Source: Rhodospirillales bacterium (GTDB lineage Bacteria > Pseudomonadota > Alphaproteobacteria > UBA828). Taken from it: a DNA stretch of 37,095 bases. Shown in pieces: positions 3,161-34,580 of this stretch (the stretch's first letter is position 1; each line of letters starts with the position of its first letter). The position numbers and the translations under genes were made by a program. Under the pieces are notes generated by a model. It was given only the letters and a program-made list of their open reading frames with translations. It did no database searches and was not told the DNA's origin. Where the stretch lies: positions 1 through 37,095 of the forward strand of contig JAPPNV010000086.1 of the NCBI GenBank assembly GCA_028818565.1, given 5' to 3'.

Positions 3161-4288
3161 ATGAAACTCACGATCGAACGCTCCACGCTGCTGAGCTCTC
3201 TGGCGCACGTGCAAAGCGTCGTCGAACGGCGCAACACGATCCCGATTCTCGCCAACGTGCGCATCGATGCGCAGGGGAGCGATCGCCTGCGACTCACCGC
3301 GACCGACATGGACCTTGCCGTCGTCGACGAGGCCGAGGCCGCCGTCGAGCAGGAAGGCGCGGTGACCACGACCGCGCTCACCCTCTACGACATCGTCCGC
3401 AAGCTGCCGGACGGTGCGCAGGTCTCGATGACTCTCGACGGGAGCGACGGTGGGCAGCTCGACGTGGTCTCGGGGCGCTCGCGCTTCCGCCTCTCGTGTC
3501 TGCCCATCGCCGAGTTTCCGGTGATGGCCGACGACGATCTGCCCTATTCATTCGAGCTGCCGCGGGATCATCTGCGGCGCCTGATCGACAAGACCCGCTT
3601 CGCCATCTCGACCGAAGAAACTCGCTACTATCTCAACGGCATCCACCTTCATAAGGCCGAGGACCAGGAGGGAATTGCGCGGCTGCGCGCCGTCGCCACC
3701 GACGGCCATCGGCTCTCCTGCGCCGACGTGGCGCTGCCCGAGGGGGCGGCGGACCTGCCGGCCGTGATCGTGCCGCGCAAGACCGTGGCCGAAGTGCGCA
3801 AGCTGATCGACGATGGCGACAACCCGGTGTCCGTCGCGCTCTCCGAGACCAGGATCCGCTTCGAAGCCGGCGATGCCCAGCTCACCTCGAAACTGATCGA
3901 CGGCTCGTTCCCCGACTACGAGCGGGTGATTCCGCGCGGCAACCAGAACGTGATGACGGTGGCGAGCGGCAGTTTCGCCGAGGCCGTGGACCGGGTCTCC
4001 TCGATTTCCACGGACCGCTCCCACGCCATCAAGCTCTCCATCCGCTCAGGGGCGGTGACACTCACGGCCAACAGCCCCGATACAGGGACCGCGACCGAAG
4101 AGCTCGATGCCGACTATGGGGCCGAGCCGCTCGATATCGGCCTCAACGCGCGCTATGTGCTCGATGTCTCCGGGCAGATCGAGAGCGATTCGATCCGCTT
4201 CTTCTTCGGCGATGCCGGCTCGCCGTCACTGGTGCGGGACACCGGCGATTCCGGCGCGCTCCACGTCATCATGCCGCTCCGCGTCTAG
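3161..4288 (+). CDS. dnaN: DNA polymerase III beta subunit (sliding clamp)
   Basis: The ring-forming clamp tethers polymerase III and repair factors to DNA. The 375-residue length fits three repeated clamp domains. The N-terminus MKLTIERSTLLSSLAHVQSVVERRNTIPILANV and the C-terminus ending in HVIMPLRV are family hallmarks; the latter contributes to the client-binding pocket. The ATG at 3161 gives the canonical start. The gene lies between dnaA and recF in the classical order, but a structured 268-bp gap follows, so recF may not be simply cotranscribed. Confidence 0.97.
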   Translation: MKLTIERSTLLSSLAHVQSVVERRNTIPILANVRIDAQGSDRLRLTATDMDLAVVDEAEAAVEQEGAVTTTALTLYDIVRKLPDGAQVSMTLDGSDGGQLDVVSGRSRFRLSCLPIAEFPVMADDDLPYSFELPRDHLRRLIDKTRFAISTEETRYYLNGIHLHKAEDQEGIARLRAVATDGHRLSCADVALPEGAADLPAVIVPRKTVAEVRKLIDDGDNPVSVALSETRIRFEAGDAQLTSKLIDGSFPDYERVIPRGNQNVMTVASGSFAEAVDRVSSISTDRSHAIKLSIRSGAVTLTANSPDTGTATEELDADYGAEPLDIGLNARYVLDVSGQIESDSIRFFFGDAGSPSLVRDTGDSGALHVIMPLRV

Positions 4289-4424
4289 CCCGGATATCTC
4301 TTCAATGTCACGGCCTGCGTCGCTCCCAGGTGTTCGATCCGCAAGAAGCGGGCCGAAGAGCGTATCGGGGAATACGGTTGAGGCCCGCGACGCTGTGGGC
4401 GGGCGCCTGGGCGCGACCCGAAGG

Positions 4425-4522
4425 GCGGCGCTGTCCGGTCGACAGGGTTCGTCAAGTCGCTTGCCCGATGTCCCTGCATCGCGCTTCGCGACATTCCTGC
4501 CCTGTCGGCCGGACAGCGCCGC
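4425..4522. repeat. Long inverted repeat between dnaN and recF
   Basis: The 23-base arms at 4425-4447 and 4500-4522 are complementary except for one T/C position that still pairs as G-T. Arm 1 starts GCGGCGCTGTCCGG. The 52-base interior holds a small CGCG-CTT-CGCG hairpin. Two further complementary pairs lie upstream (4319-4330 with 4406-4417, and 4348-4354 with 4382-4388), so the whole gap is highly structured. There is no T run, so a standard intrinsic terminator is unlikely. It resembles a palindromic intergenic element. Confidence 0.75.
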
Positions 4523-4556
4523 GCAAACCATGACCTTGGTGAGAAAGCCGGGCTAA

Positions 4557-8203
<3,647 letters not shown>

Positions 8204-31100: not shown

Positions 31101-32069
31101 ATGACTGTCCCTGCAACGCTCGATACCGTCGCCGTCGTGGGCAACGGCCTCGTCGGTCACGGCATGGCCCAGATTTTCGCGGCTGCGGGCCACCGGGTCG
31201 TCATGATCGGCCGCAGCGAGGAGAGCCTCGCCGCGGCGATGGAGCGGATTGCGAAGAGCCTCGCCGCCTTCGAAGCGCACGGGCTCGTCACATCCGGCGA
31301 AATCAGTGCCGCCCTTGGGCGCATCCGGACCTCGACCGTGCTCGAGGACGCGGCGGACGCGCAGCTCGTTCTCGAAGCGGTTCCGGCCGATCGCGCCGTC
31401 CAGGACGAGGTGTACGGGCGGCTCGACGCGATCTGCGCGCCGCCCGCCGTCTTCGCCTCCGGGAGCGGGCAGCCCGCGAGCGAGCTGGTGTCGAACGTCA
31501 GGCACCGCGGGCGCGTGGTCGCCGCCCACTTCTGGTACCCGCCGCAGCTCATTCCCCTCGTCGAGGTCTGCGCCGGGCCGGAGACCGACCCGGACGTGGC
31601 GCCCTGGCTCTGCGGCGTGCTGCGGGCAGCGGGCAAGGAGCCGGTGATCGTCGACAAGGAGGTTCCGGGCTTCATCGGCAACCGGCTTCAGTACGCGATC
31701 CTGCGCGAGGCCTGGGCGCTCTGGGCGGAGGGGGCGGCCTCGGCCGAGGCGATCGACACGGTGGTGAAGGCGTCCATCGGGCGGCGTCTCGCGATCACGG
31801 GGCCCATCGAGTCTGCCGACGTCGGCGGCCTGGATACGCTGCACGCGTTCGGCGCCTACCTCATCCCGCACCTGACGACGGGCTCCCAACCCGCGTCGGC
31901 GGTGACCGATCTGGTGGAGGCGGGGCATCGCGGCCTGCCCTCGGGCCGGGGGGTGTACGACTGGAGCGCGCGCGACGGCGCTGCGCTGCTCGTGGAACGC
32001 GAGGAGGAGCTGTTCCGCCACCTCGCCCGGGACAAGGCGGGTCACGCCGGCAGGCGCGCGGAATCATAG
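31101..32069 (+). CDS. 3-hydroxyacyl-CoA dehydrogenase family protein
   Basis: This NAD-dependent dehydrogenase has an N-terminal Rossmann motif VVGNGLVGHGMAQIFAAAGH (about 12-31) and the family C-terminal domain starting at VPGFIGNRLQYAILREA. The usual catalytic His motif HFFNP is replaced by HFWYPP (His143), and the SNTSS-type substrate loop reads ASGSGQ, so the substrate may not be a standard 3-hydroxyacyl-CoA. Relatives with such changes include L-carnitine and L-gulonate dehydrogenases. It ends with SGRGVYDW and a charged tail. AAGGAGAG precedes the ATG. It diverges from the riboswitch unit. The last codons and stop are contributed by the first copy of the 28-bp tandem repeat. Confidence 0.85.
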   Translation: MTVPATLDTVAVVGNGLVGHGMAQIFAAAGHRVVMIGRSEESLAAAMERIAKSLAAFEAHGLVTSGEISAALGRIRTSTVLEDAADAQLVLEAVPADRAVQDEVYGRLDAICAPPAVFASGSGQPASELVSNVRHRGRVVAAHFWYPPQLIPLVEVCAGPETDPDVAPWLCGVLRAAGKEPVIVDKEVPGFIGNRLQYAILREAWALWAEGAASAEAIDTVVKASIGRRLAITGPIESADVGGLDTLHAFGAYLIPHLTTGSQPASAVTDLVEAGHRGLPSGRGVYDWSARDGAALLVEREEELFRHLARDKAGHAGRRAES

Positions 32070-32157
32070 AAGTGCCGGCAGGCGCGCGGAATCATAGAAG
32101 TGCCGGCAGGCCCGCGGAATCATAGGAGTGCCGGCAGGCGCGCGGAATAAGGGAAGA
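32046..32157. repeat. 28-bp tandem repeat, four units
   Basis: Units at 32046-32073, 32074-32101, 32102-32129 and 32130-32157 follow one another without spacers. The first two are identical, the third has two changes and the last degenerates at its 3' end. Each begins GCCGGCAGGCGCGCGGAATC, which is the reverse complement of the core of the dispersed repeats at 10225 and 36713. The first unit includes the stop codon of the preceding dehydrogenase. Confidence 0.9.
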
Positions 32158-32167
32158 GCCGGTTGCC

Positions 32168-32569
32168 ATGAGCGACCAATGGCAAAAGCGACGCAGGCCG
32201 TGTCATTGCCGAGATATGCCGGATGGTTGCATCGCCGCGCTGGGGCACCCATATTTGGTAGTGGGGAGGCTTGGTAACTGGGGAGGCTGGATACTCAACT
32301 CGAACGGGACGCATCCGATGGCCAGCCGCGCAGCGATACTCACCAGCCTGGGTTCACGCAATTCGAAACCCTTCGAATTCGAGCCGCTTCCCCATCAATA
32401 CGAGGAACCGAGCATCAAGATCGGCCTTGAGGGCCACGGCGCCATTGTCGTGGACGTGCACGCCGCCAACCGCCTCGCCAACGCGATCCGGGACGACGTT
32501 CCCGAGCGCGCAAGCCAGATCGACACCTGCATCGAGCAGGCGGGGCGCTGCGCCAGGCACGCAGTCTGA
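32168..32569 (+). CDS. Hypothetical protein
   Basis: I do not recognise this 133-residue ORF. The N-terminal 50 residues are rich in Arg, Cys and Trp and look poorly coding. The part from the internal ATG at 32318 (MASRAAILTSLGSRN, 83 residues) looks more protein-like, with GLEGHGAIVVDVHAANRLANAIRD resembling an alpha/beta segment. Either start is possible; a loose GGGAAGAG lies before 32168. No membrane segment or signal peptide is visible. It lies at the left edge of the accessory island and converges on the two minus-strand island genes. Confidence 0.4.
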   Translation: MSDQWQKRRRPCHCRDMPDGCIAALGHPYLVVGRLGNWGGWILNSNGTHPMASRAAILTSLGSRNSKPFEFEPLPHQYEEPSIKIGLEGHGAIVVDVHAANRLANAIRDDVPERASQIDTCIEQAGRCARHAV

Positions 32570-32704
32570 GGGTTGAGGTGACGCCGATTAGTCGCTTAGC
32601 GTTGCAGGAACGGCCCGTCGAGTTCGGACAAACGACGTAGCGGCGCCTACTGGGTTCCCGCTCTCAGGTCCCTTCAAAGCCTTCAACTGGGGACCGCGCC
32701 ATGC

Positions 32705-33274
32705 TCAGAGCACGGCGACGTACACGCAACGACATCGTCCTCCATGCGGATTCGCATCACTGCCGTCTTTGCAGTGCTGGCCTGGAAGAGGCATGTTCTT
32801 CAGCGCAGTTCGAATCGTGAACACCCTTCCATGAAGCGCACGGCAATCATCGCAAACGCGCTCATCGTCGCAGGTCATAATTTCTACTTTCTTGATACCC
32901 GCTTCACGCATTGACAACAATTCGTGCTTATAGCCCTCTCGGGCTTCGCGATAGTATTCTCTGCCTTCCTGAAATAAAACACTTGCCAAACTGTGATGTG
33001 CTTGGCTTGCGGCTCGCCAGTCGCGCGCGCCTAGCGCTGACTGAGTTTGTTTTCTTAGGTCTTTCCGTCGTCGATCCCGTTGATCCTGTTCTCGCCTTAT
33101 CGCCTCTTCTTTAGTTAGAAGCTGTCTCGTTCCGTCTCGGAGCTTCCGCACAAAGATAGGTCTTTTGCAATTTCGGCAATTGCGCTTCCTCTGAGGTGGA
33201 GGTTCTTGGTTTTCTCCGCAATATGGACAAGCGGTGCTTTTGTCTTTGGAGCGACCGAACAACTTTCGAAGCAT
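32705..33274 (-). CDS. Zinc-ribbon protein with Mu F/SPP1 gp7-like Cys-rich C-terminus
   Basis: This 189-residue protein has three visible parts. An N-terminal zinc ribbon has CPYC and CRNC (about 16-36). A strongly charged helical stretch (about 53-80, EEAIRREQDQRDRRRKDLRK) probably forms a coiled coil. The C-terminus has DDERVCDDCRALHGRVFTI, then LPGQHC and GGRCRC. The order CxxC - LxG - CRC matches the pattern at the end of phage head-morphogenesis (MuF) domains, which are also found as effector-type domains. AGGAG lies before the ATG. It follows the nuclease gene by 122 bp on the same strand. No other phage genes are near. The family match is from memory of the motif, and the function is unknown. 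Confidence 0.6.
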   Translation of the reverse strand: MLRKLFGRSKDKSTACPYCGENQEPPPQRKRNCRNCKRPIFVRKLRDGTRQLLTKEEAIRREQDQRDRRRKDLRKQTQSALGARDWRAASQAHHSLASVLFQEGREYYREAREGYKHELLSMREAGIKKVEIMTCDDERVCDDCRALHGRVFTIRTALKNMPLPGQHCKDGSDANPHGGRCRCVYVAVL

Positions 33275-33396
33275 GATTTCTCCTAGTTGCTTTTTTTCTA
33301 TCTAAGCCGCCTTACAATGGCTGTTTCGTTACTTCATGGGGAATTCCGCATTCTTTAGCGTCTAACGGTTGGGTTCCCGGGTCAAAGTGAACTCAT

Positions 33397-33846
33397 TTAT
33401 GAGAGACGTGAAAATGAGCACTGAACAGACTCAAGAAGATAGTTGAATCCTTGCCAGCCCGCTCGTTTAGCAGTTGGTTTCAACGGCTTCCTAGGTTGAA
33501 ACATGTCTTGCGGTTGTAGGTCGGCCGACAAATAGTGAATTGCATGCTTGCGGCGGTCTTTTGTAGTAATGACCAAATAGAGTGGAAAATATATCCCCGC
33601 CTGCATCCGCTCCTGCTGAGGAATCCATCCTGCCCCTGGGATTCTTGACGGAATTTTGTTAATGTCCGCTCTGGTTGTTGTCTTCACTTGGGCGAGGTAC
33701 CCGCAAAAGTCGCATATCACGTCTGCGCACTTGAAATTTGTGGGCAGGCGCTTGAGAGTACTATCGCGTTTACATGAAGGACACCGGCAGTTTTTCTTCA
33801 CGATATTTTCGCCAAATGTTCCCAATTCTTGCTTCGATATAGCCAT
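33397..33846 (-). CDS. Compact DpnI/Dam-replacing-family nuclease (catalytic domain only)
   Basis: DpnI-type enzymes cut GATC when the adenine is methylated. Here a CxxC pair (CPSC, about 22-25) precedes ADVICDFCGYLAQVK. The spacing D-x2-C-x2-C-x4-Q-x-K equals that of the DpnI catalytic stretch ADFYCNHCSEEFELK, with Gln in place of the catalytic Glu. Later, RKPLKPTAKRAGWQGFN closely matches RKPLAPTARRAGWIGCN of DpnI. The protein ends at 149 residues, soon after this motif, so the C-terminal winged-helix domain of DpnI (about 254 residues) is missing. GTFGEN at residues 9-14 resembles the first helix motif of PD-(D/E)XK nucleases. AGAGGTG precedes the ATG. Codon use and base composition differ from the core genome. 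It could be active, a minimal variant or a remnant. Confidence 0.75.
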   Translation of the reverse strand: MAISKQELGTFGENIVKKNCRCPSCKRDSTLKRLPTNFKCADVICDFCGYLAQVKTTTRADINKIPSRIPGAGWIPQQERMQAGIYFPLYLVITTKDRRKHAIHYLSADLQPQDMFQPRKPLKPTAKRAGWQGFNYLLESVQCSFSRLS

Positions 33847-34003
33847 GATTCATTCACCTCTTATACTCCATGATCTCAGGTCATATCACGTCAATGTCCC
33901 TTTCAGGAGTTCCTAGAGGTCAACTTCCATCGCAATCTGCGTGCACGAAGAATTCTGACAGCATTGGCCGATTGCGCGGCACCGCTAGCCTCCTTGTCTG
34001 GGG

Positions 34004-34080
<77 letters not shown>

Positions 34081-34175
34081 TCTCGGCGAACCGAAGGCGC
34101 ACCATAGGCAAGCCGGACGGCGCCGGCAATGGCATCGGCAAGTCCGTTCTTCACCCCGACCCCTCCTCACCCCGG

Positions 34176-34201
34176 CCCTCTCCTCCCCAGGGAGGAGAGG
34201 G
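34176..34201. repeat. Palindrome of the CCCTCTCC...GGAGAGGG type
   Basis: An 11-bp perfect stem (CCCTCTCCTCC with GGAGGAGAGGG, loop CCAG). It belongs to the CCTCACCC...CTCTCC intergenic palindrome type frequent in proteobacterial genomes. Confidence 0.75.
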
Positions 34202-34226
34202 GGAGTAAGGTTGGTGCCGAGTACGT

Positions 34227-34255
34227 TCCCCCTCCGCCCTCCGGGGGGAGGGGGA
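34227..34255. repeat. Second CT/GA palindrome
   Basis: TCCCCCTCC at 34227-34235 pairs perfectly with GGAGGGGGA at 34247-34255. It is similar in style to the palindrome 25 bp upstream. Confidence 0.65.
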
Positions 34256-34309
34256 CAGGGGGAGGTGGGCGTCAGGCACGCGCGTAGCGCCGGGCGCTTG
34301 TTTAACTAT

Positions 34310-34580
34310 TCCCTCAGGCGCCGGGCGCTCGCTCCGCTCGCTTGGCTACGCGCCGTTCGGCGCGGCGCGCGGTCGCGCGCTCCGGACCTGCGGTCCGGCC
34401 CTCCTCCTAGCGGGCACTTCGTCGGCGGCGGGCGCTGGTCTGTTCAGTTCCCTCAGGCGCCGGGCGCTCGCTCCGCTCGCTTGGCTACGCGCTCACGCGC
34501 GCGGCGCAGTCGCGCCGTCCGGGCCTTCGGCCCGGGAGCAGGGCTTCGCCCTTGTCGGCGGGGCGCGGTTCGCTATTCTG
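34310..34580. repeat. Tandem duplication with 44-bp identical core and covarying hairpins
   Basis: A 44-base sequence (34310-34353) starting TCCCTCAGGCGCCGGGCGCT recurs exactly at 34449-34492. Behind each copy is a GC-rich stretch and a hairpin: CCGGACC-TGC-GGTCCGG (34382-34398) and CCGGGCC-TTC-GGCCCGG (34519-34535). Similarity continues weakly into a shared GTCGGCGG segment. The two units therefore abut as an imperfect tandem repeat of about 130-139 bp. Confidence 0.8.

Follow-up and report, generated by a model that had tools for sequence, protein, structure and literature searches.

A zinc-ribbon protein with a MuF/gp7-like C-terminus encoded outside any prophage in a foreign insert at tRNA-Arg of a Rhodospirillales bacterium

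Results

An intact zinc-ribbon gene in a low-GC insert

The window analysed here, a stretch of 37,095 nucleotides from a Rhodospirillales bacterium (contig JAPPNV010000086.1), contains a low-GC stretch bordered by a tRNA-Arg gene on the right and a host-side ORF on the left (Table 1). The GC content of the flanking DNA is 0.70-0.75. At third codon positions, GC amounts to 0.48-0.50 within the stretch compared with about 0.9 in host genes. The stretch carries P0001, the gene under study, with GC values of 0.60/0.47/0.48 at the three codon positions, and P0002, a DpnI-like nuclease gene located upstream of P0001 on the same strand with a gap of 122 bp.

Table 1. Coordinates of the features in the window.
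Feature	Position	Strand	Remarks
Low-GC foreign stretch	32600..34003	.	GC 0.45-0.51 at core; left edge approximate
Host-side ORF bordering the insert at the left	32168..32569	+	shared with sister genome G863
P0001, ribbon-MuF-C gene, 189 aa	32705..33274	-	ATG start
P0001 MuF-C metal knuckle, residues 128-187	32714..32893	-	CxxC..LxG..FTI..AL..MPLP...C...CRC
P0001 helical linker, residues 55-124, TPR-like helix hairpins	32903..33112	-	AlphaFold model
P0001 zinc ribbon, residues 16-43	33146..33229	-	CPYCG-x12-NC-RN-C-KRPIFVR
P0002, DpnI-like nuclease domain, 149 aa	33397..33846	-	D42...Q53-V-K55
tRNA-Arg(ccg)	34004..34080	-	right border of the insert lies at its 3' end

The P0001 ORF is intact. 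Its coordinates, strand and motifs agreed with the first description, and the sequence-only reading of a 189-residue protein with an N-terminal zinc ribbon and a CxxC...CRC end was thereby confirmed. A plausible ribosome-binding site is located upstream of the start codon (TAGGAGAAATC-ATG, with the SD-like element TAGGAGAA). The ribbon is built around cysteines C16, C19, C33 and C36, while the C-terminal motif reads C141-x2-C144-R-A-L-x-G149 ... C168 ... C181-R-C183. Both motifs occurred together in approx. 1.5e-5 of 200,000 composition-preserving shuffles of P0001. The AlphaFold model calculated from a seven-row alignment (mean pLDDT 83.5, pTM 0.69) displays a beta ribbon followed by three helices (H55-82, H86-102 and H108-124; helix pLDDT about 91-96) and then a small alpha/beta knuckle. 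The middle of the protein, initially taken for a charged coiled coil, is indeed predicted to be helical, but a TPR-like segment of three helices fits the model better. A PDB fold search with the model returned nothing significant, only weak TPR-type matches with E>0.3. We infer that P0001 binds zinc; its ribbon probably binds nucleic acids.

The tRNA-Arg site carries variable cargo

Seven further genomes of the genus and the remaining genomes searched from the order (22 genomes in all) yielded no homologue of P0001. Comparison of the corresponding loci in sister genomes (L105, L106, L107, L108 and L087) revealed that in four of them (G858, G861, G865 and G289) similarity is lost at the 3' end of tRNA-Arg or just beyond it. 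G858 and G861 each harbor one different low-GC gene at this position, coding for a 252-aa protein with a HELCH motif and a 138-aa orphan, respectively. In G865, the site is occupied by terminase, HNH and head genes together with a homologue of PD-T7-4 (E 1.2e-78). G289 lacks a low-GC insert at this site. G863 shares the left flank of our window, which is followed by another low-GC gene encoding a 177-aa orphan. The foreign stretch itself contains no integrase gene, and a duplicated att site or tRNA 3' end was sought at its left edge and not found. P0001 was acquired horizontally, with or next to the DpnI-like nuclease gene, and the tRNA-Arg site is a hotspot of the phage-attachment type with variable cargo.

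Repeats were observed on both sides of the insert. Between tRNA-Arg and an SDR gene (window 34157-34540), several GC-rich dispersed repeats were found that exist in very many copies across the genus. The 3-hydroxyacyl-CoA dehydrogenase gene ends in a 28-nt unit (GCCGGCAGGCGCGCGGAATCATAGAAGT) repeated four times in tandem (window 32046-32157), and sequences matching this stretch are dispersed across many contigs in the genome and the genus.

The C-terminus is homologous to the core of MuF/gp7 head proteins

The MuF-like nature originally proposed for the C-terminus was supported by several comparisons. The PF04233 profile matched P0001 with an E-value of 0.0027, but the score of 18.9 bits is below the cut-off of 29.6. 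TIGR01641 gave an E-value of 1.5e-7 and 31.7 bits, likewise below its cut-off (39.65), and phrog_115, the PHROG minor head protein, matched with 5.4e-7. The matches cover positions 59-110 of 112 in PF04233 and 13-99 of 109 in TIGR01641. Furthermore, a head-and-packaging family, phrog_595, recognized P0001-type proteins with a ribbon as well as a version with a SAP domain (see below). Four stand-alone homologues were aligned by hhalign with six longer cysteine-type MuF proteins, among them a protein annotated as minor head protein in a Methanomassiliicoccales phage, resulting in Prob 97.8 and an E-value of 7e-13 over the last 67 columns. A structure search against the viral models of BFVD returned minor capsid proteins as top matches (prob 1.00); owing to a different arrangement of the helices, the global TM scores were low (about 0.3). 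Since the hhalign comparison and the viral fold search agree, the C-terminus of P0001 is homologous to the MuF/gp7 core; as the family cut-offs were not reached, this is homology and not membership.

Residues C141, C144, C168, C181 and C183 of P0001 align with C, C, H, C and C of head proteins. This ligand set, CxxC followed by C (H in head proteins) and CxC, is kept across the homologues and real head proteins; ordinary phage head proteins (L067-L073) were included for comparison only. The metal knuckle is the best-conserved part of P0001-type proteins and contains an additional AL..MPLP...C stretch that is absent from head proteins.

P0001 is not a MuF head gene and lies outside any prophage. 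Consistent with the stand-alone position described initially, no portal, terminase or capsid genes were found near P0001 in the window, and the scanned genes outside the low-GC stretch are core or metabolic genes (dnaA, dnaN, a PBP1-type transglycosylase/transpeptidase, CbiD, CbiG, CobA/BtuR, CobU, glutamine synthetase and an SDR gene). A second match to TIGR01641 was absent from the genome at E<=1e-4 (assembly 92% complete). In a survey of MuF proteins, 96% of the chromosomal muf genes resided in prophages or their remnants (PMC5576092), which places P0001 among the rare exceptions.

The idea of MuF as an effector carrier did not hold for this protein. P0001 has no C-terminal toxin extension, the MuF part itself forming its end, and a MuF toxin role was rejected for this reason. 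P0001 is also not followed, on its own strand, by a small gene resembling an immunity gene. PADLOC defence models detected only a weak coiled-coil similarity of P0001 to LmuB (E 0.0075) and gave no match among its homologues. Of the defence or toxin role considered at the outset, a defence-type setting is plausible in view of the DpnI-like neighbour and of a hotspot that carries the PD-T7-4 homologue in G865.

Relatives are rare accessory genes, mostly of temperate phages

Searches with the single protein in viral contigs, phages, plasmids and 385 genomes of the class did not detect a true relative of P0001. Two candidates were rejected, L003 (genome contigs) as a mere zinc-ribbon look-alike and L004 as a coiled-coil match. 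True homologues were recovered with degenerate DNA patterns for the ribbon and the knuckle, and a loose pattern applied to 249 Pseudomonadota genomes yielded almost only chance matches. Three of 289 Pseudomonadota genomes, including the present one, were positive with a family HMM, and no stand-alone case was found with a four-row HMM in 200 genomes belonging to the phylum of a Tissierellia genome. P0001 shares no more than about 35% identity with its nearest homologue.

The full architecture occurs in several settings. L060 is located one gene behind an S24/HTH repressor gene and directly before a serine integrase gene, and L111/L112 directly behind the gene of a double-HTH S24 repressor. L063 is divergent from the rve-transposase/AAA operon of a Mu-like phage, and L109 lies on the strand opposite to a tail module. 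The ribbon spacing and a P-x-R-K..C..C...I/V-x-V-R pattern are kept in L060, L063, L109 and L111. A linker motif, D-W/Y-x2-AS...A...G, is common to P0001, L110 and others. L110 is a split version with the MuF-C gene before and the ribbon gene after a tape-measure gene (634-1104 and 4022-4927, both on the plus strand), an arrangement suggesting that the two modules work together. Moreover, we found a reduced version without ribbon near an IS transposase gene (L062), a mini version of 92 aa opposite the head genes of a prophage (L115) and, in L059 (1411-2634, plus strand; near an integrase gene), a ribbon and MuF core in which a second zinc ribbon is inserted between the CxxC..LxG part and CRC. 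L116 of genome G412 (5588-6631, minus strand) is a chromosomal stand-alone gene combining SAP (PF02037, E 1.3e-9) and MuF-C. It has no phage genes around it and is possibly a domesticated head protein.

L061 and the ribbon gene of L110 were rejected as full homologues, both having a ribbon without MuF. Short TIGR01641 matches (L017, L022, L024, L026 and L033) were also discarded, as their MuF core is of the RxSH type and has no CxxC. L017, L022, L026 and L033, all from genomes of the class to which this bacterium belongs, are short RxSH-type MuF-core ORFs with C-terminal extensions and possibly represent unrecognised MuF effector fusions.

Most homologues reside in prophages or viral contigs, which comes close to an exclusive prophage occurrence, but there they are accessory genes separate from the head module. 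On the basis of a small number of independent contexts, the ribbon-MuF-C genes make up a small and rarely encountered group of the accessory (moron) type, mostly in temperate phages. None of the relatives found has a known function.

The pairing with the DpnI-like neighbour is local

P0002 matched PF06044 with an E-value of 3.5e-17 and 63.1 bits, above the cut-off of 26.7, and the PADLOC mREase_II model with 6.7e-7. Solved DpnI (4esj) was matched with an E-value of 2.2e-7 and aligned only over DpnI residues 25-151. P0002 ends at position 150 of 183 in PF06044 and is devoid of the winged-helix 6mA reader (the DpnI chain comprises 257 aa). It shares with DpnI the nuclease domain, the zinc cysteines, a D...x-K site and the mREase_II family, but differs by PD-QxK in place of PD-ExK, by the missing reader and by belonging to a subfamily with a conserved QVK. 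Homologues 56-61% identical to P0002 all keep QVK and the zinc cysteines, and Q and K are invariant in five homologues. Judged from this conservation, the subfamily looks like working nucleases of the PD-QxK type, a variant that is accepted for Mrr nucleases (PMC11037411). L120 (59% identical) is located near Uzume (UzuA) and mREase genes, and L122 adjoins a terminase gene on a prophage contig. Members of this winged-helix-less QVK subfamily (among them L118, L120, L121, L122 and L123) were observed in several alphaproteobacterial genomes, on a megaplasmid and on prophage contigs.

A repeated association of MuF-like and DpnI-like genes, as suggested by the sequence-only reading, was not recovered. 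A MuF-like gene was found near none of the five nuclease homologues, nor was a DpnI-like gene found near any of the MuF homologues. A fixed two-gene system of P0001 and P0002 was rejected as a general rule on account of the missing partner at the nuclease homologues, and the pairing in the window is local.

Discussion

MuF domains have been described from temperate phages both as parts of the head and as carriers of toxins, and P0001 is a rare variant of this known domain. It shares with the minor head proteins of the MuF/SPP1 gp7 type the CxxC..LxG part, a Pro-rich turn and the CxC in the C-terminal core. In contrast to them, it is much shorter, with the ribbon and the TPR-like helices replacing most of the N-terminal part, contains C instead of H as third ligand as well as the AL..MPLP insert, and is encoded outside a portal/terminase/capsid module. 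MuF polymorphic toxins (PMC5576092) resemble P0001 in the combination of a MuF-type domain with another module and in their association with temperate phages, but P0001 has its MuF part at the C-terminus, with neither a C-terminal toxin nor an immunity gene nor a head module. Similar in kind is L116, which is also a stand-alone protein with a basic N-terminus, a DNA-binding-type domain, a CxxC/CxC MuF-C part and no phage genes around. Differences are its SAP domain in place of the zinc ribbon, its length of 347 aa and an HP-type spacing nearer to that of head proteins.

Building on the computed homology, architecture, foreign origin, hotspot position and accessory setting of the homologues, we tentatively propose, at somewhat less than even odds, that P0001 is an accessory moron-type protein derived from a phage head domain, which guards its carrier against other phages. 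This reading derives from the combination of the knuckle with a nucleic-acid module, the position beside repressor genes in two prophage groups and the defence cargo of the hotspot. The MuF-C knuckle would engage the usual partners of gp7/MuF proteins, namely the portal and the DNA in its packaged or ejected state, and might thereby disturb genome entry or head assembly of an incoming phage, while the zinc ribbon would supply nucleic-acid binding beside it. In SPP1, gp7 is a portal-binding protein that is also cited as binding DNA; it contributes to the start of infection, and of the virions made without it only about 25% are infectious (PMC6316719). The homologues beside repressor genes may be expressed from the lysogeny operon. 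In S. aureus phages, genes of the cI operon, including the defence gene Tha, are expressed in lysogeny, and such prophage defence genes can respond to the virion proteins of infecting phages (PMC11087260). Several points weigh against an anti-phage protein. Besides the small number of homologue contexts, the lack of a defence-model match beyond LmuB and a pairing with the DpnI-like gene that is not conserved, the N-terminal part of MuF is mostly missing from the PF04233 match, and portal binding may therefore be lost; furthermore, the homologues at tail modules, L109 and L110, could be virion proteins.

Alternatively, the MuF-C knuckle might be a plain zinc module and P0001 a nucleic-acid-binding or regulatory factor functionally unrelated to phage heads, acting for example in regulation of the element or in DNA repair. 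The replacement of the ribbon by a DNA-binding SAP domain in chromosomal L116 points in this direction, as do the strong conservation of the knuckle and its residues foreign to head proteins. We consider this rather unlikely, since all database matches of the C-terminus are head proteins, the homologues are concentrated in phage contigs and P0001 itself is foreign.

The split L110 genes around the tape-measure gene, the matches to phrog_595 and the role of MuF proteins as internal head proteins and payload carriers (PMC5576092; PMC5512222) are compatible with P0001 being packaged into virions. Through its MuF-C part it would be directed to the head of a helper phage or a resident one, and the nucleic-acid-binding protein would reach the next host by injection along with the phage genome. 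This would resemble the delivery of MuF toxins, except that the payload is N-terminal here. The usual order, however, is MuF first and payload last. Moreover, the window contains no head module and the genome no other MuF-type head protein, and the homologues L060 and L111/L112 lie beside repressor genes instead of late genes, all of which makes such piggyback transport unlikely. That P0001 is non-functional debris of a prophage or satellite once present at the tRNA-Arg site would fit isolated genes in a variable hotspot with no integrase and no att repeat, but is quite improbable, as debris should decay whereas both ORFs remain uninterrupted and are preceded by ribosome-binding sites, P0001 retains every metal ligand and the AL..MP.P motif despite the distance to the nearest homologue, and its architecture is found again in unrelated phages.

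A further extension of the anti-phage proposal is a long shot: the ribbon-MuF-C proteins might constitute a new class of prophage exclusion factors that bind the incoming portal-DNA complex, with P0001 guiding P0002 to the entering DNA.

The existence of a stand-alone, cytosolic-looking MuF protein with a DNA-binding-type domain, which certain prophages carry next to repressor genes and which is otherwise free in chromosomes, suggests a use of the knuckle outside the virion. If P0001 blocks other phages via the contact between portal and MuF, the poorly understood role of gp7/MuF proteins in genome entry would become directly testable, and the neighbours of tRNA-Arg in this genus would mark a small defence hotspot.
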